A DNA stretch of 59,991 bases from Magnetococcales bacterium WMHbinv6 (GCA_002753135.1 PDZV01000024.1:1-59991); one strand, 5' to 3'; positions 12,001 to 44,736 are shown, numbered from the stretch's first letter. Notes: generated from the letters alone by a model not told the origin. Made by a program: numbers and translations.

Positions 12001-13534
12001 CTTCGGCAGCAACTCCACAAGTTCAGTCACTTTCCTCGGTACCAGCGGAGCTGACACCTTGACTGGCACTGTCGCCGCAGAAAGTTTCGTCTCCGGCGGT
12101 GGCAACGACACCATGACCGGTGGCGGTGGTGCCGATGTGTTCCACGGCGGCGAAGGCAATGATACTATCACTGTCTCCGACCTGACTTATCAGTTGGTAG
12201 ATGGAGGCATTGGTACCGATACCCTGGCGTTGTCGGGGGCTGGCATGACTCTGACTCTGGCCAATGAACGCGGCAGGATTGAATCGATTGAGACGATTAA
12301 CTTGACAGGTGCTGGAAATAATACGCTGGTACTCACTGATTTGGACCTCTTGAACCTCTCCGATTCCAGCAATACTCTGACCGTTGATGGTGATGCAGGA
12401 GATACTGTTCGTGGAGGAACTGGTTGGACAGATGGCGGGATCAGTGGCGGCTACCACCTTTATTCAAAAGGACAAGCGCAGATCAAAGTGGCCACCACCG
12501 TTACATTCTGCCAGGGTGATCCTTTGGTGCTGGACTTGGATGGCAATGGCATCCGTCTGACTGCCAAAGAGGCCGGTATCCATTTTGATATGAATGGAGA
12601 TGGTATCGCTGATCCCACGGGTTGGATCGGTCATGGGGATGGGTTGTTGGTTTGGGACCGGAACGGCAATGGCAAAATTGATGGTATGCAGGAGGTGATT
12701 TCCGAGCATTCCTCCCCCAATGCCACCTCCAGTCTGGCTGCTCTTGCCACCCTGGACAGCAACCATGACAGTAAAATCGACATCAACGATACAGCCTTTG
12801 CCCATTTGCAGGTATGGGGGGATCAGAAACTCGATGGCGTGGCGGATATTCAGGAGTTGCACAGCTTGGCGCAATTGGGCATCACCAGTCTGGGGCTGTC
12901 ACTGGATCAACACGACCAGTTGACCATCAACGGCAATACGGTGACCGGCTTTGCCACCATAACCTACGCCGACGGCCATCATGGAAATATGGCTGAAGTG
13001 CAACTGGATTTTGTACCGGCTATGCAATCAGAACCTTTCGACGCAACTTCATCACCATCCGCTACGCAAGATGATTCAGCCAGCGTCATGCCTCCCAGTG
13101 GTTTGGCCACGGAACTGCTTAATTGGGATGGTGTTGCCCTGCAACGTGAGGGAGATACAGTCAAGTTGGTTGGCAACGACTCCTCCCTGGATTTGACCAA
13201 TCTGCTGGCCAACAAAGCGTTGGCCAGCACCGATCATGTGGATATGCGGGGTGCCGGGAACAACGCCATGAACGTTCACGATTTCCTGGATTTCTCCGGC
13301 AGTGACCATCCTCTGGTGATCTCTGGAGATGCCGGGGATGTGGTCAATGTCCAGCACGCGATCAATACCGTTCTGGGTGCCAATACCACCGTTGTCGTGG
13401 ATGGCGTCAGTCATGCCACAGACTCGACAGGCCACACGATCATCGGAGCTGACAGCTTTGTCGTGCATCAAACGGTGGATGGTCTGCATACCGTGTTGGT
13501 GGATGACCATGTTGTGGTAAACTTCCTGCGATGA
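2..13534 (+). CDS. Giant multi-propeller secreted/surface protein, 5' end cut by window
   Basis: The frame is open to the left edge, so the true start and any signal are outside the window; 4,510 codons are visible. Domains in order: a partial Ig-like module; seven VCBS/FG-GAP repeats (about 170-1160); a CADG module (1575-1860); seven more VCBS-type repeats (1950-2950); CADG (3290-3580); seven repeats ending in a GxYGQRY motif (3600-4770); CADG (4785-5075); seven SBBP-type repeats with a DFDPG motif (5090-6520); two CADG modules (6525-7110); seven GQRY repeats (7120-8275); CADG (8280-8555); seven integrin-like FG-GAP repeats (8565-10010); an RTX-like patch with GNDT/GGxGxD motifs (10020-10540); seven FG-GAP repeats (10545-12005); a second RTX-like patch (12020-12510); then EF-hand loops such as DMNGDGIAD and DRNGNGKIDG. 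No membrane anchor is visible at the C-terminus. RTX-like calcium motifs suggest type I secretion (inference). A surface adhesin or matrix protein is likely; ligand unknown. Confidence 0.85.
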   Translation, partial: ANGVDYATIGFQVSDGIDWSTSSSTINIEVAAVNDAPVLNTSTGLFSAQVSYSVGIHASSVAIGDVNKDGVQDLVVANYGTWPSSNDTASVLLGTGNGTFQTQTTYQVGGNPDPVLLSDFNEDGFLDMVVANDGSTVSVLLGQGNGTFQTRSSISVGSHPRAAAVGDLNGDGHADIVTVNRDSRTVSILLGNGNGTFQAQSSYSVGNWAHAVVIGDWNEDGIPDLAVVNTQDNNVSLLLGNGNGSFQGQTRVAVGSGPTAMTTSDLNHDGHSDLIVTNGNSNNLSILLGLWNGQFQSQIVYAVGQNPNDVVAKDFNGDDIVDLAVSNYGSNSVTILSGQSNGTFQTGQTYSSDKPNAISVGDFNNDGLPDLAVANDSNTVSILLAENFVELSDINEDTITNGFLVSDLVGSSIRDIDGGTTGIAVRTVDNVHGQWQFTLDNGVQWQNLNADSDQNSTLLAVSAGTRIRFIPGADWNGTTGLTFRAWDQSDAHISGEQVDVSVVGGASAYSDAFMEAKLRVAPVNDAPVLNTSIPDRTAIVGAAIACEVPAGTFVDADGDTLTYSATLADGTALPTWLSFDPNTHMFTGLPSSGETGILAVQVTATDSVGHSVHDSFALTIAGQQYSPVPFSSLGWSNKTATTLSSVWTKTAAVLPADMNNDGMVDLVIATADPLTGSTFDSDHVYLMMNHGDGNFSTSEVLNFPRVFTFAIADIDNDSHKDIVVSAYGEWASGLGKVGWFKNDGAGVPSFEEHVLSTSEGAFSLAVGDLFNDGNQDIIASYHFNSMFLFEQTSPGVFASQQVLESTSARGLAIGDLDGDHYNDVVRSGWWDYKINWLDIDGSLPVQSNTTITVTSTYGSGELDRPHALTIGDIEGDGDQDVVMIVDHAGQYLLINNGDQTFNAHILDKYKITADTQWWNGNYPVHLIDVDQDGIKDVIRGGVWFKVNSDYSVTQNVVDATAYAGQIVDLDNNGSLDFVISGANGIVVRYDFMRPHIAINEDSSYHFTLSDFPFTDRDTGSQLMAVRITGLPEGGELRLGGQLVAINQEIVASEISGLLFAPFQDVNGHSGVQFQVFDGSSWSASSNTIDIEVAAVNDAPVLNRSIPDRTAIIGAAFTYEVPAGTFVDADGDTLTYSATMSDGDALPTWLAFEGTTHTFTGTPTGSGDVSVRVTATDHAGASVSDSFDIGITTLNPEVAGGEFQIGTYSNVWNPAISSTSMSDGGVVVVWHTGDSSETGIVGQRYDVHGTVVGSTFQINTYETGAQLNPEVIALSDGGVVVAWESNGQDGQGFGIYGQRYSASMVPVGAEFRINTYTDNDQRIPAMAVLSDGGFVAVWNSYGQDGNDWGVYGQRFNASGTKIGLEFQVNTYTVGDQSGEHWAAHEPSNVVGLSDGGFVVTWQSLNQDGVGNGTYGAHGIYGQRYGVDGTRIGSEFRINTYTADDQMSPSMVSLSDGGFLVTWSSYEQDGSYCGVYGQRYDENSSAVGDEFQINTYTDGYQWVSAQTALSDGGFVVTWHSWEQDGSEYGVYGQQYDRNGIEVGSEFRVNTFTNGSQGTPTMTSMPDGGFMVAWASLPLGVYGQRFDANGVPFGHHEPVLATPIPDRTAIVGAAFAYEVPVGTFVDADGDTLTYSATMFDGAALPTWITFDPSTYTFSGIPDNGDLGSITVRVTASDGTSTDSDDFIIAVVNNDAPIGGSNFPVRIGGPYPDYGHAIAVDGAGNIYTAGHFRGTIDFDPGPGVFNLTTEHYDGGVWSGYHEAIFIQKLDAVGNFVWAKGLSGGTSMMEDHVVITVDQSNNLYVTAGLADVNGDGFYPLDNPGVGMIRIEGAGDGPNRDIVAMKFDTDGNVLWTSILDGTGDNAPSAIATDNAGHLSITGSFWGTMDFDPGPAVHSVSNGVERQSMFIQQLDASTGVLTWVKTMGDIEASYIRSSGITLDGANNVYVIGEYSGPGVVDFDPGNGVATLDATYSSFLLKMDSSGNFVWVQDTGSTYGGVLSVATDDAGNVYTTRISADLGCFIQKQDSFGNVLWSREVASGNPSNSLGVIPYSIAVDKDSNVLTSGGFYGALDFDPGVDEFSLVSIGNSDIFVQKLDAEGRLIWAKSAGGAGWEFARSIAVDTLGNMHITGWFEGTSDFDPSASNITLTAIYDPEVWSNDIRDVFVLKLDATGDLFVHSNDAPALAIALPDRTALVGYVFTWQMPGNAFTDSNGDSLTYIATLADGSSLPSWINFDPVTRTFSGIPINGDAGNITVRVTASDGISIGSDEFIITVANVNDAPSVVNAIADQNVKQYSALSFQIPSDAFADVNAGDILTYTATLVDGSALPTWLAFDGTTHTFTGTPTSSGTVSVRVTATDQSGASVSDDFTLTIVAGFSSTNEFQIDASGGFDPHAPSVTTLSSGEYVVAWHENQTGHYNIYGQRFRETGELIGADFQIDASPDGDSYFPVTTSLVDGGFVVVWESNGYMSGNGFDIFGQRYDESGNQIGSEFQINTHVDSDQRLPAMAALANGGFVVVWQSDGQDGNGLGVFGQRYNADGSVSGNEFQVNTYTLGNQHGTYWNNENISVATLSNGDFVVAWGSENQDGSGYGIYGQRFDAYGALEGTEFKINSYTSNNQEAPTVISLSDNSFFVTWGSWDQDGNEYGVFGQRFDGNGEAVGSEFQVNTYTTGYQWAPTSIRLADGGFVVSWNSWEQDGDQYGTYGQRYDMNGVAVGNEFRINSTTIGDQGSPSLTAMSDGGFVAIWNTTYDGLYGKKYYVNHVPVVKSPLSDRTAIVGAAFAYEVPVGTFVDADGDTLTYSATMSDGTVLPTWLVFDGTTHTFTGTPTGSGDISVQVTATDHAGTSVSDDFTLTIEMPTSANVFNLATIDGSNGFRLDGVSTGDAGHWLDSPVSSAGDVNGDGFDDLIVGAPGANFNAGSVYVVFGHASNFSTWINFSTLDGGAGFRIDGVDGQTGESVSSAGDVNGDGLDDVLIGARYSDNAIGSSYVLFGQTSGFSSVIDLANLDGSTGFRLFGATGDRSGASVSSAGDVNGDGFCDLIIGAIGTNSYAGSACVVFGHASGFSAVLPLSSLDGNTGFRLDGILADNQFGRSVSSAGDINGDGFSDLIVGAYRFSPNITDAGSSYVVFGGASSFNSAIDLSSLNGSTGFRLDGAATGDQSGFSVSSAGDVNGDGFDDLIIGARYANPNGLAQAGSSYVVFGKATGFYSTISLANLDGHTGFRLDGVVAYDCSGKLVSSAGDFNGDGFNDIIIGALRADPNNFSSAGSSYMVFGKASGFNSVINLASLDGSTGFRLDGVESGDQAGFSVSSAGDVNGDGFADIIIGAYGANSRTGSSYIIFGSNSTNSVTFLGTNGNDTLNAGTSAAERFVSGGGNDTMTGGGGADVFHGGVGNDTISVSDLTFQLVDGGTGTDTLALTGSGMTLTLANLRGKVEAIETINLTGSGDNTLVLTALDALNLSDSGNVLKVDGNAGDVVNAGTGWTDRGSNGVYHFYTQGQAVLYVATSISVVAPQPVPASVIALSSLNGSNGFRLDGVAAGDISGQSVSSAGDVNGDGYDDLIVGASDADHNGLGRSGSSYVVFGKTSGFNSSIDLSSLDGSTGFRLDGAAAGDETGFSNSAGDINGDGIDDLIIGAVAASDWAGSSYVVFGKSSGFSSSVNLSSLNGSNGFRLVGEQWTNWSGYSICSAGDVNGDGFDDLIVGAKGVNSYAGSSYVVFGKASGFSSTIYLSGLDGSTGFRLNGAVAHDESGFSVSSGGDVNGDGYADLIVGAWGADPNGLSSSGSSYVVFGSSSVFSSVIALSGLDGSTGFRLDGALAGDNSGLSVSTAGDVNGDGYADLIVGARWADPNGLSQSGSSYVVFGSSSVFNSVINLSSLDGSIGFRLDGAMADDNAGISVSSAGDVNGDGFDDLMVGAFQADPNGTDSGSIYVLFGKSSGFTSAMNLSSLNGSTGFRLDGTAAGDQAGVSIRSVGDVNGDGFDDLIVGARRADPGGLTDAGSSYILFGSNSTSSVTFLGTSGADTLTGTVAAESFVSGGGNDTMTGGGGADVFHGGEGNDTITVSDLTYQLVDGGIGTDTLALSGAGMTLTLANERGRIESIETINLTGAGNNTLVLTDLDLLNLSDSSNTLTVDGDAGDTVRGGTGWTDGGISGGYHLYSKGQAQIKVATTVTFCQGDPLVLDLDGNGIRLTAKEAGIHFDMNGDGIADPTGWIGHGDGLLVWDRNGNGKIDGMQEVISEHSSPNATSSLAALATLDSNHDSKIDINDTAFAHLQVWGDQKLDGVADIQELHSLAQLGITSLGLSLDQHDQLTINGNTVTGFATITYADGHHGNMAEVQLDFVPAMQSEPFDATSSPSATQDDSASVMPPSGLATELLNWDGVALQREGDTVKLVGNDSSLDLTNLLANKALASTDHVDMRGAGNNAMNVHDFLDFSGSDHPLVISGDAGDVVNVQHAINTVLGANTTVVVDGVSHATDSTGHTIIGADSFVVHQTVDGLHTVLVDDHVVVNFLR

Positions 13535-13590: not shown

Positions 13591-13632
13591 AAGGAGATGG
13601 CTATGTCGGCAGGAAGGAGATGGCTATGTCGG
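13591..13632 (+). repeat. Tandem duplication of a ribosome-binding site and start codon
   Basis: A 19-base block containing AAGGAG and two ATG codons occurs at 13591-13609 and again at 13614-13632, an offset of 23 bases. The offset is not a multiple of three, so the first copy starts a different frame. The second copy serves the downstream Rpn gene: GGAG at 13616-13619 is well spaced from the ATG at 13626 but touches the ATG at 13620. Confidence 0.8.
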
Positions 13633-14603
13633 AATCCGACAACCAGAGCCAGAAAAACGAATTTGACACTCCGTGGAAGGAGATTCTGCGGACGCATTTT
13701 GAGGACTTTCTGGCTTTTTTCCTGCCAGAAGCGCATGACGGGATAGAGTGGAGGAGGGGGTACGAATTTCTCGACAAGGAACTGGCCAGCATCGCACGTG
13801 AAGCTGAGATCGGCGATCGGCGCATGGACAAGCTGGTGAAGGTCTATCAGAAAGACGGTGTTGAGTATTGGGTGGTCATTCACGTCGAAATCCAGGGTGG
13901 CAGAGAGGCCAACTACCCGGAGCGGATGTTCACCTACAACTACCGGACCTATGACATCAAGAAGAGGCCGGTAGTCAGTTTGGCTGTCCTGGCAGATGAT
14001 GATATCAACTGGAGGCCGACTGAATACGGTTACGAATTGTGGGGCACGCGGGTGGGTTTCCGGTTCACGGCGATCAAGCTGTTGGACTATTCGGAAGCCG
14101 ACTTGGAGCGGTCGAGCAACCCGTTTGCAGTTGTGGTGCAGGCGCATTTACAGGCCAAGAAGACCAAAGGCAAGACGGAGGATCGGTACCAAGCGAAATG
14201 GAAACTGATCCGAAGCTTGTATCAGCGAGGGTATGACCGCCAGAAGGTGATTGATCTTTTCCGATTTATCGACTGGGTGTTGCACCTTCCCAGGGAAGCT
14301 GATGAGCGGTTGATGGCAGAAATTGTTGCATTGGAGGAGGACAAAAAAATGCCGTACATTTCGAGTGTGGAGCGGATTGGGGAAGAGAGAGGTGTCCTGA
14401 AGGGCATCGAAATCGGAGAGCAGAGAGGCGAGAAAAAGGGTAAAGCAGACACCCTGACCCGCCAACTGCAACGCCGCTTCGGTGACTTGCCACCCTGGGC
14501 CAGCCAGAAAATAGCCGATGCCGATCTGGCTACTTTGGAAAATTGGAGTCTCCGAATCCTGGACGCGCCGACGTTGGAGAGCGTGTTGGCCGACCCGTCG
14601 TAA
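13626..14603 (+). CDS. Rpn-family recombination-promoting nuclease/putative transposase (PD-(D/E)XK)
   Basis: This 325-residue protein resembles the Rpn/YhgA-like family, whose PD-(D/E)XK nuclease domain promotes RecA-independent recombination in the characterised E. coli members. A likely catalytic strand is visible as HVEIQG (near residue 92), preceded by acidic residues in DRRMDKLVKV. The C-terminal part has a Glu/Gly/Lys-rich linker (near 265) and a DUF4351-like end (GKADTLTRQLQRRFG). The same tail recurs in the second Rpn gene at 15140-16057. I chose the ATG at 13626 because its Shine-Dalgarno spacing is normal; the ATG six bases upstream abuts the site. The gene stands alone, followed 310 bases later by a terminator-like hairpin. 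Whether it mobilises DNA here is unknown. Confidence 0.8.
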   Translation: MSESDNQSQKNEFDTPWKEILRTHFEDFLAFFLPEAHDGIEWRRGYEFLDKELASIAREAEIGDRRMDKLVKVYQKDGVEYWVVIHVEIQGGREANYPERMFTYNYRTYDIKKRPVVSLAVLADDDINWRPTEYGYELWGTRVGFRFTAIKLLDYSEADLERSSNPFAVVVQAHLQAKKTKGKTEDRYQAKWKLIRSLYQRGYDRQKVIDLFRFIDWVLHLPREADERLMAEIVALEEDKKMPYISSVERIGEERGVLKGIEIGEQRGEKKGKADTLTRQLQRRFGDLPPWASQKIADADLATLENWSLRILDAPTLESVLADPS

Positions 14604-15139
14604 AGGTGGTGGAGAATCCGCATTCTCATTTTTATATGCAAAATCTGCAATAGAGAATTCCGTGATTGCATCTTGCCAACGAAGCGGGAGTCGGAAGCGA
14701 GTCCGAAGGTGTGTCATGAAAAGTCATTGAGATTTCGACGGCTGCGGAGAAGTCATTGAATATCAAATTGATTTTAATCGGCTCATTACTTGGCTAACCA
14801 AGATGGCGTCGAAACGTTCTCCTGCTGCGCTGCAGCAAAGTGGTGGAGAAAAAGTTCGACGCTCGGAAACTTGCTCCACCATATAAAATTCAGCAGAAAT
14901 TCTCTGTTTTCAAGCCACTCCCAAAAGTGGCTTTTTTTACGCAAAAAATCCAAATGTTTTCAACGGTTACCGAAGAACCCAAAAACCCTTATATTATAAA
15001 ATTTAAGGTGAGCTGCCGAGTGTGAGTGAGAAACCGGAAGACATCTTTCTGAACCAGTTTGTGGTGGTAAAAGTGCTTTGCAAAAGGTAGACTGTTACCG
15101 GTATGCGCTGGTGACTTCCACTGATTGGGTAGATCTGCC
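14604..15139. other. Non-coding gap between the two Rpn genes
   Basis: No convincing gene is present in this stretch of about 540 bases. It holds a 10-base direct repeat (AAGTCATTGA at 14721-14730 and 14750-14759), a terminator-like hairpin (14913-14938) and an AT-rich tract near 14993 (TTATATTATAAA) that could be part of a promoter for the next gene. I could not fit a good -35 box to it. Confidence 0.6.
14913..14938 (+). terminator. Rho-independent terminator
   Basis: A perfect 7-bp stem (AGCCACT at 14913-14919 with AGTGGCT at 14926-14932) has a 6-base loop and runs directly into seven T residues (14932-14938). This is the classic form of an intrinsic terminator for rightward transcription, but it lies 310 bases beyond the stop of the Rpn gene, so it would end a long 3' tail or a separate transcript. 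Confidence 0.7.
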
Positions 15140-16057
15140 ATGAAATTTATCGACCCACGTATTGATTTTGCCTTCAAGAAAATTTTTGGCAGTGAGAGTG
15201 CCAAGGATCTCCTGGTCAGTTTTCTGGAAAGCCTGCTCGGCCTGGAAGGCGACCGGCGGATTGCCGAACTGACAATCCTGGATCCCTTTCTGGTACCGAA
15301 AATTCGCGAGTTGAAATATTCCATCCTGGATGTCCGTTGCCGCGATCATCGGGGCGTCTCCTACATCGTCGAAATGCAGATACAGAGGGTGGCCGCCTTT
15401 CTGAAACGGATCCAGTACAACGCCGCCAAGGCGTATGTCAGCCAGGTCGAGCGAGGAGAGGAGTATCCCAAGTTGAACCAGGTGATCGCCATTACGATCA
15501 CGGATTTCATCTTGTTCAACGGCTTTAACCATTGCGTGTCACGCCACGAGTCACGGGAGATCATCACCGGACAATCTTATCTGCAGGAAATTCTGCACTT
15601 TTTTGTCGAACTTCCCAAATTCCAAAAATCTCTGGATGAGCTGGATGGTATCCTGGATCAATGGATTTACTTCATCAAGTATGCCGGTTCGTTGCAGGAA
15701 GTGCCGGCAAAACTGAATGCGGAGCCATTTCGTCATGCGTTCGAGATGGCGATGGTGGCCAATATGTCAGCGGAGGAACTGGAATTGTATGAGAAGGCGG
15801 GCATAGCCATTGCGGATGCGCGGGGTGCGGTTGAGTTGGCTCGAAAGGAGGGAGAGCAGAAAGGGCGGCAGGAGGGTGAACAACTTGGTGAGCAAAAAGG
15901 TAAAGCCGACACGCTGCTGCGCCTTCTCCAACGACGTTTCGGTCAGGTCTCGGGTCCGATCAAAGAGAAGGTAACGGAAGCCAGCCTGGAACAGCTCGAA
16001 GTCTGGACCGATCGCATCCTGGATGCCAAGTCGATTGATGACGTTTTCATGACTTGA
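15140..16057 (+). CDS. Rpn-family nuclease/putative transposase (PDDEXK_2 type)
   Basis: This 305-residue protein starts with the typical opening of PDDEXK_2 family proteins, MKFIDPRIDFAFKKIFG. The nuclease core is visible as LDVRCRDHRG followed by YIVEMQIQ (residues about 64-83), giving the D...ExQ arrangement. A Glu/Gly/Gln-rich linker near residue 240 leads to a DUF4351-like tail, GKADTLLRLLQRRFG. The tail and linker closely match those of the first Rpn protein although the N-terminal domains differ, so the pair may share a partner or oligomerisation mode. The ATG at 15140 is preferred over an upstream TTG (15125) because it begins exactly at the conserved family N-terminus. Its function in this genome is not shown. 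Confidence 0.8.
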   Translation: MKFIDPRIDFAFKKIFGSESAKDLLVSFLESLLGLEGDRRIAELTILDPFLVPKIRELKYSILDVRCRDHRGVSYIVEMQIQRVAAFLKRIQYNAAKAYVSQVERGEEYPKLNQVIAITITDFILFNGFNHCVSRHESREIITGQSYLQEILHFFVELPKFQKSLDELDGILDQWIYFIKYAGSLQEVPAKLNAEPFRHAFEMAMVANMSAEELELYEKAGIAIADARGAVELARKEGEQKGRQEGEQLGEQKGKADTLLRLLQRRFGQVSGPIKEKVTEASLEQLEVWTDRILDAKSIDDVFMT

Positions 16058-25699: not shown

Positions 25700-26152
25700 A
25701 TGGAGAGCGACAACTCGCTACAACCTGTCACCATTCTGATGGTGGAAGATGATGATGGACATGCCACCCTGATTGAGCGCAACCTGCGCCGTGGTGGCAT
25801 CAATAACCCGATCATCCGTCTGAAAAACGGTCGGGAGGCGTTGGATTTTCTCTATGCGCGTGGTCAGTATGCCGGAGCCAGCTTTCCGGTCCATCTGCTG
25901 ATGCTGCTCGATCTGAATATGCCGGAAATGGATGGTTATCAAGTGATTCAGGTCATGAAAGAGGATGAACGGCTGCGGGTGATCCCTGTGGTGGTGCTGA
26001 CCACCACGGACGATCCTGTCGAGGTGCAACGCTGCTATGATTTGGGCTGCAACAATTTTGTCACCAAACCGGTCAACTCCCTTGAGCTTGCCAAAACCAT
26101 TCAGAACATGGGATTGTTTATTCATATCATGTCGTTTCCCTGTTGCGCATGA
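25700..26152 (+). CDS. Single-domain response regulator (Rcp1/CheY-like)
   Basis: This 150-residue protein is one receiver domain and no output domain. The acidic pocket is VEDDDG (about residues 15-20), the phospho-acceptor Asp71 lies in [12 protein letters not shown], and the conserved Lys123 in VTKPVNS. The loop between helix 1 and strand 2 ([20 protein letters not shown]) is characteristic of Rcp1-type regulators that serve phytochrome-like kinases. AAGGAG lies before the ATG. The C-terminus is slightly unusual, ending in a hydrophobic [11 protein letters not shown]. It overlaps the next gene in an ATGA arrangement. It presumably relays phosphate from the kinase upstream to, or in parallel with, the hybrid kinase downstream. 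Confidence 0.9.
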
Positions 26153-28650
26153 ACACGCTGCCCGCTGATCCTGCCCCCATTGCCATCCTTTATATGGAGG
26201 ACGATGCCACCCTGGCCGAATGGGTGAAACGTCGTCTTGCCCGACGGGGGTTCGTTGTGGATATTGCCCCGGATGGGGCGTGCGGTTTGGCACAGTTGGC
26301 AGAGAACAGCTACCAGATTGTTCTGGTCGATTATCAAATGCCCCATCGCAATGGCATTGAGATTCTGCAAGAGATTTTGGCCAGACCGGCAGCACCTCCG
26401 GTTGTGTTGGTCTCTGGCTTCAGCAAGCTGGAGATTGTTATCGAGGCGTTGCGTCTGGGGGCTGCCGATTATGTGGTCAAGGAGGGGGGCAGCAACTATC
26501 CTGATTTGATCGCCGAAACCATCCATCGCATTCTGGAAAAACAACAGCTGATCCGGGCCAAAAATCAGGCTGAATTGTCGCTGCGTGAGCGTGAGTTGCA
26601 GTTGCGTGCCATTGCCGATTCAGCCAGCGAAGCCATCATCTCCGCTGACCTCAACGGTCTTTGCACCTTCTGGAATCGGGGCGCGGAGGTGATTTTTGAC
26701 TACACGGAAGCAGAAATGTTGGGCCGTTCTTTGACCGTTTTGATCCCGGAACGGTTTCAGGAACGGCATTGCGCCGCTTTGGCCAGAGTGCGTGAGTCCG
26801 GCGTCATGCGTCTGGCGGGCAAATCGGTGGAGTTGGTCGGGGTGCGCAAAAATGGCGACGAATTTCCCTTGGAACTGTCGCTCTCCACCTGGTTTGTCCA
26901 GGAGAGCCGTTACGTCTCCGCCGTGGCGCGTGACATGACCGAACGCAAAGCCGCCGAGGTGCAGAGCCAGCGCCTGTTGCAGACACAGATTTTAATTAAT
27001 ACTTTGCTCCACTCATCAACCGGATTTCACACTCTGGAACAGCAGCTCCAGATTGCCCTGAATCTGATTATATCGGGCAGCTGGTTGCCTACCCTGCGCA
27101 AGGGAGGCATTTTTTTGTACGACGAAAGCGAACAGGCCCTGCTCTTGAAAATCCATCAGGGATTTGAAAATCATACGCTGCAAACCTGCAGCAAAGTCAC
27201 CTCTGGGCACTGTTTGTGTGGTCAGGTGCTGGACAACAAAAAACTGCTGTTTGCCGACTGGAGGAATCCGGCCCATACGATCCATTTTCCCGGCATGTCG
27301 CCGCACGCCCATTATTGTGTACCGATTTTATCGCGGGAAAAGCTGCTCGGGGTGATGAATATCTATATGCCGGTGGATCATCATCGCCAGGAGGATGAGG
27401 CCGAGCTGTTGGCAGCAGTTGCCAACGCCCTGGCCGGTATCATCGAGCGCAAACAGTTGGACGACAAGCTGCACCAGGCGCTGCAGCAGGCCGATAAGGC
27501 CAATCAGGAAAAAAGCCGCTTTCTGGCGGCCATGAGTCACGAAATTCGCACCCCGATGAATGCCATTCTGGGGATGGGGGAGCTGTTGTCCGAAAGTGAT
27601 TTGGATGAAGAACAGGCGTTGCATGTCAACATCATCAACCATGCTTCGCAGGGGTTGCTGGCTTTGATTAACGACATTCTCGATTTGTCCAAAATTGAAG
27701 CGGGTCAGTTGGAGATAGAGACCATTCCCTTCACCCTTGCCCCCATCGTGCGCACCGTGCTGGAGATGATCCAGCTGAAGGCGTTGAGCCAAGGTACCGC
27801 ATTGACCAGCCATATCGAGGCCGATGTGCCGGAACAGCTGCTGGGCGATCCGTTACGGATCCAGCAAATATTATTGAATCTTTGTTCCAACGCCGTCAAA
27901 TTTACCGAAAAGGGCAAAGTGGAGGTACGGGTCAGTCGTGTCGATCAGGAGCGTATCTCTTTTGCGGTCTCTGATACCGGCATTGGCATTCCCGTCGAGC
28001 GGCAGGAGGCCATTTTTCAACCGTTCGTCCAGGCCGATCTTTCCACCACGCGCCGTTTTGGCGGCACCGGGCTTGGTTTGTCTATTTGCTGGAAGTTGGT
28101 CGAAAAAATGGGTGGGAATATGGGCTTTGTCAGCACGCCTGGACAAGGCAGCACGTTTCATGTGGTGATTCCGTTACCTGCGGCGACCGTTGTTGTTGCT
28201 GCACCGAGGCATGCCCAACAGCCGAGCGAGCCTGTTGCCAACGACAGCGGGCTGACAATTTTGCTTGCCGACGACGCCGAAGAGAACCGTCTGTTGATCA
28301 AAGCCTACCTGAAAAACTCCCCGCACCGTTTGCTCACCGTGGCCGACGGCGCAGAAGCGGTACGCCGTTTCCAGGAGGGTGGCATTGATCTGATTTTGAT
28401 GGATGTACAAATGCCCGGCATGAACGGCTATGAGGCCACCCGAGAGATTCGTACCTGGGAGCGCAACAAACGACTCTCCGCCATCCCCATCCTCGCCCTG
28501 ACTGCCAACGCCATGCGTGACGACCGGGAAAACACGTTGCAGGTCGGCTGCAACCTGCATCTTTCCAAGCCGATCAGCAAAAAACATTTGCTGGAAGTGC
28601 TGAGCCAATTCAGCCGCCAAGCAGGCTCTCCCAACCCCCGCACTGCTTGA
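26149..28650 (+). CDS. Hybrid histidine kinase: REC-PAS-GAF-HisKA-HATPase-REC
   Basis: This 833-residue, apparently soluble protein has six modules. A receiver domain comes first ([12 protein letters not shown], about residues 60-70), then PAS ([19 protein letters not shown], ending in DMTERKAAE), GAF (about 280-430), HisKA with His464 in [19 protein letters not shown], and HATPase ([15 protein letters not shown] and [19 protein letters not shown]). A second receiver closes the protein, with Asp752 in [14 protein letters not shown]. The start ATG overlaps the stop of the preceding regulator (ATGA at 26149-26152), so the two are translationally coupled. It could receive phosphate at its first receiver and relay it through its C-terminal receiver to an Hpt protein not encoded here. 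The operon contains no transcription factor, so its output is unknown. Confidence 0.9.
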
Positions 28651-28895
28651 GTTCTTCCCTGCCGCAGCCACATCACTGCCAACACATCCCGGCAATCCCA
28701 TGCCTGACTGCCATATTTTTAGACGCCCCGGTTGCTGCCGGTTTCCAGCCCTCTGTTTCACCTTTGCAACAAACCAGACCAAGGAAAACTTGCCTTTCAC
28801 ATCGAGGTCACGTTAAACTGTTTATCTTGTTGTTATGTAACTTTTAATAACATAGACGATCCCGAACTGCTTTCCGGCTGTTTTGTGAGGTGCGC
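28651..28895. other. Intergenic region before the octapeptide-repeat gene
   Basis: About 245 bases without a gene. It contains a TGTTAT/ATAACA inverted repeat (28831-28836 and 28847-28852) in an AT-rich patch that may include the promoter of the next gene. I could not assign -35 and -10 boxes with confidence. Confidence 0.4.
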
Positions 28896-31800
28896 GTGAG
28901 TACCCCTACCTATACCAGTAAACAAATGAGCCAGTTGACCACAGCGCAACTGGCTGCGCTGACCTCCGAAGAGTGGGCTGCCTTGAGCCATGAGCAGCTG
29001 AACGGTTTGACCTCTCGCGGCTTGATGATTTTGACCGAGGAGCAGCTCAACGGCTTTTCTGCCGAGCAGTTGGCGGGCTTTGCCCATACGCAGTGGTCCG
29101 GGCTGACGGCGGCGCAGTTGGGTTCGCTGGCCGATAATCAGCTCGACGGGGTGGGTTCGCTGCAGCTCAATCGCTGGGCGTCCACGCAGTGGAACGGATT
29201 GACGGCGGAACAGTTGAGCAATCTGGCCATGACCCAGCTCGACGGGCTGCGTTCCGCCCAGATCAGCAGCCTGGCGGTGACCCAGTGGCAGGGGTTGCGT
29301 GCAGAGCAACTGGCCTCGCTGGCGGTGACCCAATGGAACGGGGTCTCTTCCCGGCAGTTGGCCGCTTTAAGCAACAGCCAGTTGGATGGTTTGAGTTCGG
29401 CCCAGTTGGCCAGCATGGCCAATACACAACTGGACGGTTTGAGCGCCGCCCAATTGGCCTCGCTGGAGGATAGCCAGCTGGCCGGGTTGCAGGCTGGCCA
29501 TTGGAAGGCGATGAGTACCACCCAGTTGCAGGGGTTGACCTCCGGGCAGATCGATTCGTTGTCCACCCTGCAGTTGCAGGGGTTGAGTTCGGCGCAACTG
29601 GGGGCCTGGTCCGATGAACAATGGGACGGGTTGAGCGCGCAACAGCTGGCCTCTTTCTCCAAATTTCAGTTGGCGGGTGTGACTTCAGCCCAGTTGAGCG
29701 CTTTTGCCGATACCCAGTGGCAGGGGTTGAGCAGCGCCCAGTTGGCCACGCTGAACAGCAAGCAGTTGGCGGGATTGAACGCGACCCATCTGCAAAACTT
29801 GACCACCAGCCAGATTGCCGGTTTGAGCGCCGCGCAGCTGGCTGCCATCAGCGTGACGGCCATGGCTGGCTGGAGTGTGGAGCAGTTGCCGACTTTGACC
29901 TTGACACAGATCGGCAGCTTAAGTCGCAACCAGTTTGCTGCGTTGACCGCGACGCAAGGCAACGCCTTGAGTTCCACCCAGATCAGCTGGCTTTCCACGA
30001 CCCAGATGGCCGGTTGGACCACCGCCATGCTGCAGGGTCTGAGCAGCGAACAGCTCAAAGGGTTGCGTGCCGTGCAGATTGTTGCCTTGAGCAGTACCCA
30101 GCTGCAGGGGTTGCCGGATACCGCGTTGTCCGGGTTGAGCGCCACACAGATCAAGGCGCTGAGCCCTACCCAGGTTGCCTTTTTGACCACCACCCAGCTG
30201 GCGGCGCTGCCTGTCGAGCGGATGAGTCTCTTGACCAGTCAGCAGTTGTCCGCCCTGACCCCTACCCGCATCGGGTTGTTGGCGGCGGCACAGGTTGCCG
30301 GGTTGACCTCCAGCCAGCTTAACGTCTTGAGTGTGCGGCAGGCGGCCATGTTGACCGCTTCGGCCATTGCTGCTTTGTCCAACGAGGCGCTGCCCGGCTT
30401 GACCGACAATCAGTTGGCTGTCTGGGACAGCACACAGATTCAAGCGTTGCAGAGCGGGCAAATACCGATTTTGAGCGGTTCGCAATGGCAGGGGTTGGGC
30501 AGCAGTCAGATCGGGGCGCTGAGCATCACCCAGATCGGGGCGTTGACTTCGACGCAAATTCGCAATTTGACGACCACCCAGATCAAAGGGTTGCAGGTGG
30601 AGCAGTTTATCGGTCTGACCCCGCAACAGTTGGGGGCTTTTTCCTCTGGGCAACTGGCTGCACTGACCACAACACAAATGACCGGTTGGCATTCCGACGA
30701 TCTGGCGACGTTGACCACCCGGCAGATGCAGGCCTTTTCCGGGGCACAACTGGCCGCCTTGACCATCGAGCAGGCAGTGGGCTTGACGGCAGAACAGTTG
30801 CGTTCGCTGGGCACGGTGCAATTGCAGCTTTTTACCAGCGAACAGGTCAGCCACTGGTCGGTGCAGCAGTTGGCAGGATTGAGCAGCGAACAGATCGGAT
30901 CGTTGACGGCAGGGCAGCTCTCGGCGTTGCAGAGCGAACAGATTGCCGCATTGAGTGTCACCCAGAGCCGGGGCTTGACGGCAATCCGCATCAAAGAGTT
31001 GACCAGCAGCCAATTGGCCGGTTTAACCACCACCTCGCTGGCGACTCTGTTGACCAGCCAGATTGCGGCGTTGACCGCGACACAGCTCTCTTTGTTGAGC
31101 CTGGAGCAGGTGGGAGCGCTCAGTTCACAGCAGATTCGCACCTTGTCGGCGCAACAGATGGCCGGCTGGAGCGAAAGCCAGGTGGCGGCGATCACGGCCA
31201 GCCAGATCGGCGGCTTGACCACCACCCAGTTGCAGCGTTTGTCCACAACGCAGTTAAGCGGCTTGTCGGCCGCCCAGCTGGGTTGGTTGGGCAGTCGGCA
31301 GATCAGTGTTTTTTCTTCCGAGCTGTTTGCGGCGATGAGCAGTGATCAGTTGCAAGGGTTGAGCGTAGAGCAGGTGCGTCTCCTGAGTGTACAGCAGTTG
31401 CGGGGGCTGGCGGCAGAGCAGCTGGCCTCTTTGAGCGAAAACCAGATCAGTGTCCTGAACACAACCCAGATGCAATCCCTGAACAGCACCCAGTTGCAGG
31501 GGTTGACCGAAATGCAGATGGCCGCTTTGCAGGCCTTGCAGGTACGGGCTTTGACCAGCCAACAGATGCGCAGTTTAAACATCACCCAACTGGCGGCCAT
31601 CACCAGCACGGCCATCGCCCAGATGTCGGTGACGCAGGTGCGAGGTTTGACCACCACGCAGGTGGCAGCCTTGACCGTGACCCAGATCGGAGGTTTGACC
31701 CGCCGCCAGCTGGCCTCGTTGAACTTATCGCAGGTGACGGCTCTGAGTGGTGAACAGCTGGCAGCGTTGCGCCCGGATCAGGAGAAAATATTGACGGCGG

Positions 31801-32828
31801 AGCAGGTGGGCAGCCTCTCGGTGAGTCAGTTGCAGGCGTTGAGCAGCACCCAGATTGCCGATTTGACCAGCACGCAGATTATGCGATTGTCCAAGACCCA
31901 GCTGGCGGCTTTAAGCGACGAGCAGGTTGCGGCGCTAAGCAACGATGATTTGGCCGTCTTGAGTACCCGGCAGGTGGCGGCCTTTTCGCTGCAGCAGATG
32001 GAGGCGCTGACCAGCGGCCAGATGGCCGGTTTGACGGTGACAATTCTGCGCGCCTTGACCCGCACCCAAATTGCCGGGCTGCATGCGGAGGATCTGGGGG
32101 CCTTGAACACCCGGCAGTTGCAGGGGATGAGCGGCAGCCAGTTGGCGACGTTGACAGCGGCGCAGTTGGAGGGGCTCACTTCGACCGGCATCCATGCCTT
32201 GGCCACCGATCAGGTCATGGGTCTGTTGGCCGATCAATTGGCGGCTTTGACCACCACCCAGTTGGCCGGCTTGACCGCCAATCAGATCAAACAGCTGTCG
32301 GTGACCCAGTTTGCCGGTTTGTCGACCACCCAGATTGCCACCTTGAGCAGCGGGCAGGTGGGTGGGTTATCGATCCGGATTATCGCCGCCATGAGCGAAG
32401 GGCAACTGGTCGGCTTGACCGCCAGCCAGATCGGGGTGTTGAGCAAGTTGCAACTGCCCCATTTAAGCAGCGATCAGATCGGGGTGTTGAGTACCAGCCA
32501 GATTGTCGGCCTGACCGGCAGCCAGATCGCCTCGTTGAGCCGCAAACAGGAGGCGGGTCTCACCTCGGCACAGATTGCGGCGATGAGTGCTACCCAGATT
32601 CACGGTTTCACGGCGGTGCAGATCAAGGCGCTGAGCGACGAACAGGTGTTGGGCCTGACCAGTCATGTCGCCGATTTGCGCAGCAACCAGATACCCGGCT
32701 TGCAGACTTCAGACTTTGCCCTGCTGCAATCCGGCATCGCCGCCTTCACGCAAGAGCAGTTCAACATCATGACCAAAGCACAACGTCTTGCCTATATCGA
32801 AGCCGGGGGGAGTTTGAGTACCTCATAA
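28896..32828 (+). CDS. Octapeptide-repeat protein (about 155 LTxxQLxG repeats)
   Basis: Almost the whole 1,310-residue protein is one strict 8-residue repeat, L-[ST]-x-x-Q-[LIM]-x-[GA], for example LTAAQLGS, LADNQLDG, LTTTQIKG. In the N-terminal third the octads alternate as a 16-residue pair. The register is unbroken until about residue 1,260, where one repeat loses a residue and a non-repetitive tail (FNIMTKAQRLAYIEAGG) follows. I see no Cys, few charges, no signal peptide and no membrane segment. The repeats could form a beta-solenoid (two octads per coil, with Ser/Thr/Gln on the surface) or a helical array; sequence alone does not decide. The start is GTG at 28896, 5 bases after GAGG; a GTG six bases upstream overlaps that site. 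It stands alone between divergent contexts. Function unknown; a structural, surface or filament role is conceivable. Confidence 0.85.
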   Translation: MSTPTYTSKQMSQLTTAQLAALTSEEWAALSHEQLNGLTSRGLMILTEEQLNGFSAEQLAGFAHTQWSGLTAAQLGSLADNQLDGVGSLQLNRWASTQWNGLTAEQLSNLAMTQLDGLRSAQISSLAVTQWQGLRAEQLASLAVTQWNGVSSRQLAALSNSQLDGLSSAQLASMANTQLDGLSAAQLASLEDSQLAGLQAGHWKAMSTTQLQGLTSGQIDSLSTLQLQGLSSAQLGAWSDEQWDGLSAQQLASFSKFQLAGVTSAQLSAFADTQWQGLSSAQLATLNSKQLAGLNATHLQNLTTSQIAGLSAAQLAAISVTAMAGWSVEQLPTLTLTQIGSLSRNQFAALTATQGNALSSTQISWLSTTQMAGWTTAMLQGLSSEQLKGLRAVQIVALSSTQLQGLPDTALSGLSATQIKALSPTQVAFLTTTQLAALPVERMSLLTSQQLSALTPTRIGLLAAAQVAGLTSSQLNVLSVRQAAMLTASAIAALSNEALPGLTDNQLAVWDSTQIQALQSGQIPILSGSQWQGLGSSQIGALSITQIGALTSTQIRNLTTTQIKGLQVEQFIGLTPQQLGAFSSGQLAALTTTQMTGWHSDDLATLTTRQMQAFSGAQLAALTIEQAVGLTAEQLRSLGTVQLQLFTSEQVSHWSVQQLAGLSSEQIGSLTAGQLSALQSEQIAALSVTQSRGLTAIRIKELTSSQLAGLTTTSLATLLTSQIAALTATQLSLLSLEQVGALSSQQIRTLSAQQMAGWSESQVAAITASQIGGLTTTQLQRLSTTQLSGLSAAQLGWLGSRQISVFSSELFAAMSSDQLQGLSVEQVRLLSVQQLRGLAAEQLASLSENQISVLNTTQMQSLNSTQLQGLTEMQMAALQALQVRALTSQQMRSLNITQLAAITSTAIAQMSVTQVRGLTTTQVAALTVTQIGGLTRRQLASLNLSQVTALSGEQLAALRPDQEKILTAEQVGSLSVSQLQALSSTQIADLTSTQIMRLSKTQLAALSDEQVAALSNDDLAVLSTRQVAAFSLQQMEALTSGQMAGLTVTILRALTRTQIAGLHAEDLGALNTRQLQGMSGSQLATLTAAQLEGLTSTGIHALATDQVMGLLADQLAALTTTQLAGLTANQIKQLSVTQFAGLSTTQIATLSSGQVGGLSIRIIAAMSEGQLVGLTASQIGVLSKLQLPHLSSDQIGVLSTSQIVGLTGSQIASLSRKQEAGLTSAQIAAMSATQIHGFTAVQIKALSDEQVLGLTSHVADLRSNQIPGLQTSDFALLQSGIAAFTQEQFNIMTKAQRLAYIEAGGSLSTS
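28920..32690 (+). repeat. 24-bp-period coding repeat array
   Basis: The DNA repeats every 24 bases in step with the protein octads, with a recurring TTGACCACCACCCAG-like core. Individual units differ at many synonymous and non-synonymous positions, so the array is old or diversified rather than freshly amplified. The periodicity keeps several other frames open on both strands. Confidence 0.8.
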
Positions 32829-32829
32829 T

Positions 32830-34005
32830 TCAGGTTTCTCTCTTACGCCCCGGTTGGCGTTGTGCCGGGTTGGCAGGATGTTTGGGATCGGGACCGGGTT
32901 GGCGAGCGCCTGGCTTGCCTCTGCCGTGGGCATCGAGCAGCAACAGGCCGGTGACCTCTTCCCGGTCGTGGTAGAGATGACGGAAGCGCAGTTGGCAGCG
33001 AATGCCCGCCTGTTGCAGGGGGGAGAGCAGCAGTTGACGGCAAAGCTGCAGCTCCTCGAACCGTTTTTTCATCGGCAATTTGAGGTTGAAGAGGGCTGCG
33101 CGGCACCAGCCGGCCTGGGCCCAGCGTTGGATCAATGCGGCAATCCGCCGTGGCTTTTCCACCATATCACAGAACAACCAGTCTACGCTTTGCGACGGTT
33201 GAAAATGAAAACCGTCTGCCCGCCGATGGTGCAGGCGGGGTGCATCGCGCAGCGTCGGGGCCAGATCGGCCCGGTCGACGGCGATCACCGCCAGACCGCG
33301 CTGCAACAATACCTGACTCCAACCACCAGGTGCCGCCCCCAGATCGACCGCCCGTTGGCCAGGGGTGAGCCGTTGTCGTCGCTCCTCTGGGCTCAACAGT
33401 TGCCAAAAAGCCTCTTCCAGCTTCAGGGCCGCTCGGCTGGGGGCGTCGTTGGCCAGGCGCAGACGGGGAATGCCCATCGGCCAGTGTGCCCCCTTGTCGG
33501 GCCAGGAGTAGCCGGTCAAGGCCTCCGTGCCGCTTAACAAGACAATTTCTGCCCGTGGGTGGTGTGTATCGGGCTGCAGCCGGTTTTCTTTGCGCAACGA
33601 CTCTTCCAGGCGTCCCTGCAGGGCGCGGCAGAGCGGAGCCAGCACTTTGCCTGCCTCCGAATCCGGATAGCCCAGCCACAAAGCCGCAAAGGGGCCCACC
33701 TCTTGACTCAAAGAGGCCAGACGTTGCCCCAAAGGGGTAAGGCGATCCTTGATCGGCAACGGTTCTTGTGGCCCGTCACAGGCCAAAAAATGGCGGCTGA
33801 AGGTCAACGACTGCAAACGCAGCCGTGCCAACAGGCTGCCGGTCAGACGGGGATCATCCAGCTGCAGCAGGACGTAGCCGCTTCGCGCCGGGGCGGTTCC
33901 GCTCACCCGCACGCCCATCTCGTCGCAGAGCCACAGGAGTTCGGCCAGTGTCTCCTGTTCAAATCCGGCCCGACAATAAAAAAAGAGGCGGCTGCAGGGC
34001 TCCAT
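32830..34005 (-). CDS. rlmM: 23S rRNA 2'-O-ribose methyltransferase RlmM
   Basis: This 391-residue protein methylates the 2'-O of C2498 in 23S rRNA (E. coli numbering) in the RlmM family. The N-terminal THUMP-like part begins RLFFYCRAGFEQETLAEL. The Rossmann methyltransferase domain has the SAM motif AVDLGAAPGGWSQVLL (about residue 210), VIAVDRADL, the catalytic-type WLFCDMVEKP and LFNLKLPMKKRFEEL. Length is close to the usual 360 with an extra basic tail (KPGARQPGPDPKHPANPAQ). Its stop lies one base from the stop of the convergent octapeptide-repeat gene, leaving no space for a shared terminator. Confidence 0.93.
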   Translation of the reverse strand: MEPCSRLFFYCRAGFEQETLAELLWLCDEMGVRVSGTAPARSGYVLLQLDDPRLTGSLLARLRLQSLTFSRHFLACDGPQEPLPIKDRLTPLGQRLASLSQEVGPFAALWLGYPDSEAGKVLAPLCRALQGRLEESLRKENRLQPDTHHPRAEIVLLSGTEALTGYSWPDKGAHWPMGIPRLRLANDAPSRAALKLEEAFWQLLSPEERRQRLTPGQRAVDLGAAPGGWSQVLLQRGLAVIAVDRADLAPTLRDAPRLHHRRADGFHFQPSQSVDWLFCDMVEKPRRIAALIQRWAQAGWCRAALFNLKLPMKKRFEELQLCRQLLLSPLQQAGIRCQLRFRHLYHDREEVTGLLLLDAHGRGKPGARQPGPDPKHPANPAQRQPGRKRET

Positions 34006-42072: not shown

Positions 42073-43047
42073 CTAAAAGGGCATTTTTGGCCGGGCGACC
42101 CGTTTGGTTCCCTTCGTCTCTACCGGTTTGACATCGACGCTGGCGGCCAGCCGCAAACCCAAATCAGGCCGTTTGTGGCCGAAACGTTCAAACCCCCGAT
42201 TGGCGCACCGGATTCCCTCCGAGCCATCTTTCCAGCCGCCGCCCCGGATGACGGAAAAGGGAGTGTCGCTGCTGACCAGTGGATCGTTGCTGCCGTGCTG
42301 GCCGTAGGCGTTTTTATCGTAGCTGTCGCGCACCCACTCCCAGACATTGCCGCCCATGTCATAGAGCCCCAGTCGGTTGGGCAGGCGGCTGCCGGTCATC
42401 TGCGTGCTGTTGTTGCTGTTATGGCGATACCAGGCCAGTTGATCCACCTGGGCGTAGCCGGGATAGACCACTTTTTCACCGCCGTTGCGGCAGGCATATT
42501 CCCATTGCGCTTCCGTCGGCAGGGCAAAGTTGACTGAGCCCTGATGGTGGGTGTTCAATTTGGCCAGATACTCCTCCACATCCATGCGGGTGATGTGTTC
42601 CACCGGAAAGGCCTCATCTTTTTGTCCCATCACCTCATGGTGCAGCTGTGACGGGTTGTGCAGCAACACCCGTTGCCATTGCTGCTGGGTCACTTCCCGT
42701 TCGCCGAGCCAAAAACCGGAGAGGCAGACGTTGTGCATCGGCTCTTCGTCGGCATCCCGTCCTTCCGCGTTGGGCGGGGAACCCATCTTGTAACAGCCGC
42801 CGGGAACCCAGACAAAAGAGATACCGCTCAACGGTTCCCGCCACGGTTTGCCTGCCTGAATATCCACCGCGCCGCCTGGGGTGGTGACGGTGGTACTCAA
42901 TTCGTCCCACTCTTTGATGAGGAAGGCCTCTGCCGTGGCGGCCAAAGCCAGCAGGGGTAACAACAGCAGAGCGACCAGGCCATGGCGGCTGGAACCTGCC
43001 GTTTTCCGGCGTACAGAAGGGGCAGATGGGCTTGCCAAACGCAACAC
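42073..43047 (-). CDS. Exported SUMF1/formylglycine-generating-enzyme-like protein
   Basis: This 324-residue protein has a signal peptide (hydrophobic HGLVALLLLPLLALAATAEA, cut near residue 40). Its SUMF1/FGE-sulfatase fold shows in FVWVPGGCYKMGSPP, FWLGEREVTQQQW, ALPTEAQWEYACRNGG, LGLYDMGGNVWEWVRDSYD and VIRGGGWKDG...RCANRGF...LGLRLA. The paired catalytic Cys of true formylglycine-generating enzymes are not obvious, so it is more likely a binding or regulatory relative. It starts with GTG directly after the TAA of the caspase-like gene (zero gap). Caspase-type and SUMF1 domains occur together or fused in many bacteria, so these two exported proteins probably work as a pair. Confidence 0.85.
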   Translation of the reverse strand: MLRLASPSAPSVRRKTAGSSRHGLVALLLLPLLALAATAEAFLIKEWDELSTTVTTPGGAVDIQAGKPWREPLSGISFVWVPGGCYKMGSPPNAEGRDADEEPMHNVCLSGFWLGEREVTQQQWQRVLLHNPSQLHHEVMGQKDEAFPVEHITRMDVEEYLAKLNTHHQGSVNFALPTEAQWEYACRNGGEKVVYPGYAQVDQLAWYRHNSNNSTQMTGSRLPNRLGLYDMGGNVWEWVRDSYDKNAYGQHGSNDPLVSSDTPFSVIRGGGWKDGSEGIRCANRGFERFGHKRPDLGLRLAASVDVKPVETKGTKRVARPKMPF

Positions 43048-44736
43048 TTATCTCTCTCCTTTGCTTTTGCTCAGGCGCATCTTGATCGGTTTGGACAGAT
43101 AAACGTCGCCCTCCGGCATCATCTGCTGCAGATAACGGTAGCTTTCCGCCAGTTGGATCCAATCGTCGCCAGTCTGTTCTCTGTTTTCATTCTCACCCAG
43201 CATGGCCTTGAGCAGATAATAGGTCAAGCCCCCCTGCCGACCGGCCCCATGCAACGGTGCCCGTTTTTGCAGAGAAGAGACCAGCCAGGCATGCGGACCC
43301 CGGAAAAAAGCGGCGTCCAGGGCTATGGCCGATTGGGCTTTTGCCGCATGGCTCATGTTGCCCGATGCGCTGCGACCTTGCGCCGCGCACTCCGCGCTGT
43401 TGTTGAAACAGGTGTCGAGAATGATGGCGGCATTGGCGTTTTTCAGTTTGTTCAGCGACTCCTGCAGTTCTGCCAACGAAATGGCTGCTTGCGGGTTGAT
43501 CCCCTCCAGCTGGCTTTCAGCCGGCAACAGCAGACCATCTTCCACCGCATTGTCGATCACCAGGGGGGCGGCCCAGCCGGAATAATAAAACAACAGAATG
43601 GCACCCGGATTGAGCTGACCCTGACGCACCAGCCAGCGCAGATCGTCACGCAGGGTGGCCAGATTGGCCTCCTGATCGACCCGCAGGCGGACATGCTCCA
43701 CATCATCTTTGAACAATCCCCGTTGCACCAGCATGCGCTGCATATGGCGGGCATCGCGATCGGCAAAATGGCGGGAACGCAGATGCTGGTAGCGGTTGAT
43801 GCCAACGATGAGCGCGTAGGCATCGTCGCGTTTTTCCCAGGGAGCGATGGGCGGCAGGGCCTGAATGTGGTCATCGAGCAGGGGTGACTGATCATCCATC
43901 ACGCCGCTTTTTTTCCAGGTTTCATGCGGCAGGTCGATGGGGTAGGGCATCTCGGCATCTTTGTCCAGGTGGACAGAGAGCAGGCGGTCTTTGGCCTCGA
44001 CGAAACGGCTCTCCTGCGGATACTCTTTGATCAGCAGGTTGATCGCCTGCCGGATGGCGGGCAGTTGGCCGTCATGTTCACAGGGTTTGCCCTTTTGCGG
44101 CTTCAGACATTCACGAAATTTGCGCCATAAGGTCTCCACCACATATTCGGAGGCCTGATTCTGCCACTGCACGGCACGCACACCGCTGAAGCCGGAACGG
44201 CTCAACCAGTCATAGGCTTCCAGATAACGGCCCAGGCGGAAGAGGGCATAAAGTTTGGAATGGGCCAGCGACCAGTTGCCGACAAACACCTGCAACCCTT
44301 CGTTGGCCAGTTGCAGCGACTCTTTATCCTTGCCCAGTTCAAATTTGAGCCAGGCGAGGTTGGCGATGGCCTTTTCCCGATTATTGGCTTCGGTGGCACC
44401 CGGCATCAGATTCAGGCTGTCCCAGACCGCTTCTGCCCGTTCGGCGTTGCCCGCCATGTAGTAGGCCAGCCCCAGGTTGAAGGCGATGCCTGGATCGCTG
44501 GGGCAGATCACGGCGGCATTGTTCATGGCGGCGATGCCCTGATCGGTATCCCGTTCGTAGATGGCAATACCTTTGACCGCCATCTCCCGGGCCACGATAC
44601 AGGGGTTGGAGTGATCGCCGATGGCCCAGGCAGGCAGTGGCAGCAACGGCAGCAACAGCAGGGTCAGCCAGCGGACAAAGGAGCGCGGAGCGCCGGAGGC
44701 TCGCCCACGGTTGCCCGGGAGAGGTGCCCCTTTCAC
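43048..44736 (-). CDS. Exported TPR/caspase-like protein with catalytic His replaced by Trp
   Basis: The 562-residue protein has a signal peptide ([16 protein letters not shown]), a TPR-like N-terminal half (residues about 45-190, including [19 protein letters not shown]) and a C-terminal peptidase C14 (caspase) domain opening with [18 protein letters not shown]. The expected YSGHG motif reads YYSGWAAP, so the catalytic His is Trp388. The nucleophile Cys443 is kept in [11 protein letters not shown]. With the dyad broken, it is probably an inactive pseudo-protease, or uses another base. The GTG start overlaps the fba stop (GTGA), which suggests coupling. Later segments [15 protein letters not shown] and [12 protein letters not shown] fit the caspase fold. 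Confidence 0.85.

Follow-up and report, generated by a model that had tools for sequence, protein, structure and literature searches.

The window analysed here, a stretch of 59,991 nucleotides from Magnetococcales bacterium WMHbinv6 (GCA_002753135.1, PDZV01000024.1:1-59991), contains an octapeptide-repeat gene of the ALTTAQ type, flanked by a histidine kinase gene (26143-28650) and by RlmM (32830-34005, minus strand). The features of the locus are as follows:

28887..28890, plus strand: GAGG, plausible ribosome-binding site of the GTG at 28896 (direct sequence reading)
28896..32828, plus strand: ALTTAQ octapeptide-repeat protein, 1310 aa, GTG start (ORF list; Pfam PF20080, E 9.9e-133; orthologue)
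28896..28934, plus strand: N-terminal leader of 13 residues, without a hydrophobic signal peptide (sequence; kept in the orthologue)
28935..32678, plus strand: 156 octads in register, L-[ST]-x-x-Q-[LIM]-x-[GA], each a predicted short alpha helix (motif counts; AlphaFold, 20 octads)
32679..32825, plus strand: C-terminal cap with register slips and longer predicted helices, ending ...AYIEAGGSLSTS; candidate export signal (conserved among paralogues)

The ORF list confirms the plus-strand reading frame and the coordinates 28896-32828 given in a preliminary description of this DNA. The start was assigned to the GTG at 28896 rather than to the upstream GTG at 28890 because the GAGG at 28887-28890, five bases 5' of the former, is correctly spaced for it, and because a congener's orthologue shares both this first residue and the length of 1310 aa. 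The leader sequence, VSTPNYTSKQFSQ, is conserved in that orthologue.

Several other genes in the window deserve mention. An ORF of more than 4500 aa at 2-13534 (plus strand), cut by the window edge, contains FG-GAP, He_PIG, and RTX repeats, a composition typical of large type I secretion substrates. Also on the plus strand, a PD-(D/E)XK transposase-family gene (15125-16057) has a DUF4351 tail, and a second gene with DUF4351 lies nearby (13620-14603). Two adjoining minus-strand genes at 42073-44736 code for a protein with a formylglycine-generating-type (FGE-sulfatase) domain and for a caspase-domain protein that matches TPR weakly. At three ALTTAQ sites of this genome (window 26143-28650; L009 11750-14999; L010 4786-5835), the neighboring genes include histidine kinases or response regulators, which may reflect chance in a kinase-rich genome.

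The octad array spans residues 14-1261 in a single register; its 156 units agree closely with the approximately 155 first described, and the protein contains 128 in-phase [hydrophobic]xxxQ[hydrophobic] motifs, as compared with a maximum of 9 across 2000 shuffles. Rather than only one slip, as originally reported, there are two one-residue slips, both within the last ~50 residues. The protein does lack cysteine and is poor in charged residues (50 Lys + Arg and 68 Asp + Glu among 1310), and the 16-residue pairing noted earlier is real, since self-identity rises from 0.30 at lag 8 to 0.36 at lag 16 over a background of about 0.07. Position 8 of the octad alternates, being mostly Gly in one unit and Ala or Ser in the next. 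At the DNA level, neighboring units are only 45-49% identical, which argues that the octads are old, diverged repeats.

The preliminary description could name no described family for the repeat and had listed a match to a characterised repeat family as evidence that would count against its reading. Profile searches, which it had proposed, recovered such matches, to Pfam PF20080 (ALTTAQ_rpt) and to the solved structure 9zem. The window protein scores 432 bits against PF20080 (E 9.9e-133; curated cut-off 26.4 bits), with 38 stretches above threshold; this score, together with the long tandem array in one register, places the protein within the family, from whose octad motif it does not differ in sequence. 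NCBIfam profiles did not match the protein, and matches to CAAP1 and Sigma70_r4 profiles were rejected as low-complexity or period coincidences. Among solved structures, one chain, HeliScrew4 (PDB 9zem), carries the octad repeat (phmmer E 1.4e-15; profile match E 7.6e-25, same octad and register over 108 residues). Positions 3-4, occupied by Ser/Thr in the native repeats, are richer in Pro and Glu in this 120-residue chain. No mention or functional description of ALTTAQ, PF20080, or HeliScrew in this sense was found in the literature searched; ALTTAQ is thus a family listed in Pfam but functionally undescribed in the literature found.

Structure prediction of 10-20 octads had also been suggested. 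An AlphaFold model of 20 octads (residues 976-1135, counted from GTG 28890; the input alignment was built from further in-register stretches of this protein) comprises 20 short helices and no strands, with a mean pLDDT of 93.7 and a pTM of 0.82. A model of the C-terminal piece shows regular octad helices followed by longer cap helices, with lower confidence at the very end. Together with the sequence match to 9zem, these models indicate that the protein folds as an alpha solenoid of the HeliScrew type, with one short helix per octad. Each octad would form a helix of ~5 residues begun by a Ser/Thr N-cap; judging from the motif, the conserved Gln, third in the helix and three residues after the Ser/Thr, would complete a capping box, and the solenoid core would be made up of position 1 (Leu) and position 6 (Leu/Ile/Met).

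The extended solenoid and helical array of the preliminary description are therefore retained, but its alternative of a beta-solenoid resembling ice-nucleation proteins is not. The period of 8 or 16 residues suits a beta-solenoid and public records label some relatives "ICE nucleation protein"; however, the model is all helix at a pLDDT of 94, with none of the strands such a fold requires, and the sequence pattern equals that of the HeliScrew4 chain, making this reading very improbable. A leucine-rich repeat protein built of 24-residue units can be dismissed with similar assurance: the weak profile and phmmer matches to leucine-rich repeat structures fall far below 9zem, 24 is three times eight by coincidence of period, and neither the LxxLxLxxN strand per unit nor any strand at all appears in the model.

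Foldseek returned mesothelin structures as the best solved matches (E 2e-4, TM 0.3-0.45), followed by ARM-type proteins, whose Z of about 5-6 reflects general superhelix shape. The mesothelin ectodomain is an extracellular helical superhelix (PMC2628672), and in this mesothelin and stereocilin ectodomains resemble the modeled octads; however, TM-scores are low, the proteins are eukaryotic, and mesothelin is not among the matches shown in phmmer and profile searches of solved structures. The likeness to mesothelin and ARM proteins is one of general shape, not membership. HeliScrew4 (9zem) did not figure among the matches of the fold search, which covered structures up to April 2026. ARM/HEAT solenoids were rejected since they need helix-turn-helix units of ~40-50 residues, as compared with a repeat of 8 (16) residues here, and a phage receptor-binding protein (7qlr) that alone tops the list at Z 8.3 lies inside the chance range for helical repeats.

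The genome (3.84 Mb, 80 contigs) contains 127 ALTTAQ-matching stretches in about ten genes, located on contigs C23, C28, C29, C37, C40, C42, C62, C70, C71, and C76. Paralogue lengths range from about 750 to more than 5,600 aa; several arrays run past contig ends, and the longest open arrays reach 5675 residues (C40) and 5377 residues (C29). In sum the arrays amount to about 25,500 codons. In a sample of relatives, 16 genomes match ALTTAQ, all from the window's own family; the other families of the order gave no matches (0/23) in the same sample. Window segments used as queries, in alignment-based as in single-protein genome scans, gave no matches, and phage records yielded no ALTTAQ match, with few matches in viral contigs. 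We also compared 81 related loci, drawn from named genomes and plasmids and from viral contigs; the named loci were retrieved with a Thr-rich consensus query, which biases the sample toward Thr-rich arrays. At least three C-terminal types occur by lineage (...ATGGGK, ...NNLLI/PLI, and ...SALFL), perhaps representing different export or anchoring signals. Seven Pseudomonas ALTTAQ proteins (L025, L031, L051, L060, L087, L095, L098) share a non-repeat C-terminal domain, for which the proteins tested gave no separate match in NCBIfam or Pfam; a known T1SS adhesin domain, suspected at the end of some Pseudomonas copies, was confirmed by neither collection, and the idea was dropped.

Repeat number, whose comparison among strains had been proposed at the outset, is nearly invariant between the orthologues compared. 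The window protein and its orthologue in congener G004, both 1310 aa, align over 1308 residues at 59% identity with zero gaps. Further orthologue pairs align over 5333 residues with one gap of 32 residues (four octads), over 5376 residues with one single-residue gap, over 2639 residues with no gap, and, in the sister genus, over 2680 residues with no gap. The five pairs (59-82% identity) thus contain 2 internal gap events in 17,336 aligned residues. As a baseline, ordinary proteins encoded beside the window gene show 16 gap events in 3730 residues when aligned with those of congeners at 60-78% identity; therefore, about 74 would be expected in the ALTTAQ pairs, a rough comparison given the small baseline and uncounted terminal differences. 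A further pair (C71 vs. G006 C134; 59% identity, ten gap events, some large) was excluded because the C71 gene overruns its contig and orthology is unsure. Values of dN/dS are 0.14-0.24 across the orthologue pairs and 0.23 for the window protein, with dS near saturation in the G000-G004 pairs; together with the gap-free alignment, these data support the earlier proposal of selection on a periodic structure.

The simplest reading of this conservation is that indels of a length other than a multiple of eight break the solenoid and that the units have diverged too far for slippage to occur. Selection may also act directly on the exact length, but it need not be invoked. The "ruler" of the preliminary description fits the frozen repeat number, though register constraint and diverged units provide a sufficient and simpler reason. 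In its fuller form, as a molecular ruler or intracellular scaffold that remains inside the cell and dictates, by its exact repeat number, how long a cellular structure becomes, this explanation draws on repeat number being the same between species despite 41% residue divergence, on the single multi-octad indel in the whole aligned set, and on the absence of a signal peptide. However, a register constraint that forbids most indels, combined with the rarity of multiples of eight, explains the freeze without a ruler; paralogue lengths vary widely; and the protease fusion and T1SS neighbors described below point to export. We regard a ruler or intracellular scaffold as quite unlikely.

The window protein has no evident N-terminal signal peptide, and neither T1SS nor GT41 genes adjoin its gene among the flanking genes checked. 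In congener G006, no ALTTAQ array lies beside RlmM. Adjacent T1SS genes are common, but not obligatory, for T1SS substrates. Four sister-genus genomes carry a peptidase-type ABC transporter gene next to ALTTAQ genes of about 1,780-2,940 aa, with HlyD beside ALTTAQ in two of the four and GT41 genes also adjacent; in Cereibacter and Pseudomonas, named plasmids place ALTTAQ beside annotated type I secretion genes. HlyD occurs in 7 of the 81 related loci, and in 5 of the 35 with both flanks visible. A gene in congener G001 (L135:5239-8559) joins a serralysin-like M10 protease (metzincin, HEIGHALGLDH) and RTX to an ALTTAQ array and cap; its terminus, ...QKSAYVAAGGMLS, is of the same cap type as that of the window protein, ...QRLAYIEAGGSLSTS. 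Type I secretion is the classical export route of serralysin-type proteases. As this fusion shares the cap, the cap is the most likely export route, although it gave no match to T1SS signal families. RTX calcium-binding GGxGxD nonapeptides are not matched in the window protein and are present only in the congener fusion. The giant adhesins and RTX proteins exported by T1SS are repetitive, signal-less proteins of thousands of residues, and ALTTAQ proteins, whose genes in relatives have T1SS neighbors, resemble them in this; the window protein is unlike them in its all-helical prediction, its lack of calcium-binding repeats, and its frozen copy number.

In 36 of the 81 loci, a GT41 (OGT-like) glycosyltransferase gene is found no more than 3 kb from ALTTAQ, usually at 60-900 bp, and in 28 it is directly downstream; where both flanks can be seen, 22 of 35 loci have one. 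Pfam confirmed five of these genes as GT41. Congener G001 has a GT41 gene of 3767 aa (L119:1251-12554) and, about 1.2 kb from it, an ALTTAQ gene oriented divergently; in the genome of the window, the C29 array lies about 4-5 kb from the gene for a TPR/GT41 protein of 2460 aa (L116:4426-11808). Both proteins contain several GT41 modules in tandem, with TPR confirmed in L116. GT41 is not obligatory, since seven ALTTAQ-matching genomes outside the family in the phylum sample (three of them below the Pfam cut-off) had no GT41 match. Genome-level co-occurrence gives no support, as GT41 is found in every order member listed in that sample. Ser/Thr content did not differ between ALTTAQ loci with and without GT41, and Ser/Thr retention at octad positions 3-4 is about equal to the prediction from composition. 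Large ALTTAQ genes with adjacent GT41 also occur in the sheathed bacteria Sphaerotilus mobilis and Leptothrix discophora (L091, L097); a link between ALTTAQ and sheath building would be speculative.

Cytoplasmic glycosylation before export has precedents in the HMW1 adhesin, modified by the GT41 enzyme HMW1C (PMC3012730), and in Caulobacter flagellin, modified by FlmG, which combines TPR with an OGT-like domain (PMC7591256). Both resemble the arrangement proposed for ALTTAQ in pairing a substrate with a cytoplasmic GT41-type transferase that acts prior to export; however, their export routes differ, and glycosylation of ALTTAQ proteins is putative and not universal.

These data suggest, at a probability of roughly 0.5, that the window protein is a type-I-secreted, rigid surface or matrix rod of a kind that is glycosylated in many lineages. 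Lacking a signal peptide, the protein would be made in the cytoplasm, where GT41 probably decorates the exposed Ser/Thr of many lineages' proteins, including several copies in the window's own family; a type I secretion system would then export it via the conserved C-terminal cap, and outside the cell it may serve as a rigid rod or spacer of the surface or matrix, possibly in adhesion. Because GT41 is not obligatory, HlyD occurs in a minority of loci, and the sample is biased toward Thr-rich arrays, the role of the window copy is inferred from relatives, whose GT41 and T1SS neighborhoods and protease fusion favor the "surface scaffold" first suggested.

The array might instead be a large interaction or adhesion surface, its octads binding specific partners, its length frozen by unit-specific sites, and its glycosylation incidental. 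Units that are mutually diverged yet conserved between orthologues (59-71% identity, dN/dS 0.14-0.23) are what such a surface would predict, and the structural likeness to ARM and mesothelin-type solenoids is compatible with it. However, substitutions fall mostly at positions 2-4, 7, and 8, with no obvious invariant patches except the cap; we consider this explanation unlikely.

Returning to the exported rod, the recurrence of ALTTAQ with adjacent GT41 and type I exporters tentatively suggests, at less than even odds, a widespread and undescribed system of Pseudomonadota that would build giant, rigid, O-glycosylated alpha-solenoid rods at the cell surface whose length is genetically fixed by a locked octad count. 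In this genome, a named but functionally undescribed family fills about 2% of the sequence and includes some of the largest genes. Some 17,000 nearly gap-free residues represent tandem repeats with almost no change in copy number, unlike the usual variable surface repeats. The recurrent pairing of ALTTAQ with GT41, the loci that combine it with T1SS genes, and its fusion to a protease provide the family with a concrete role that can be tested, and the octad itself is a simple, extendable building block in protein design.
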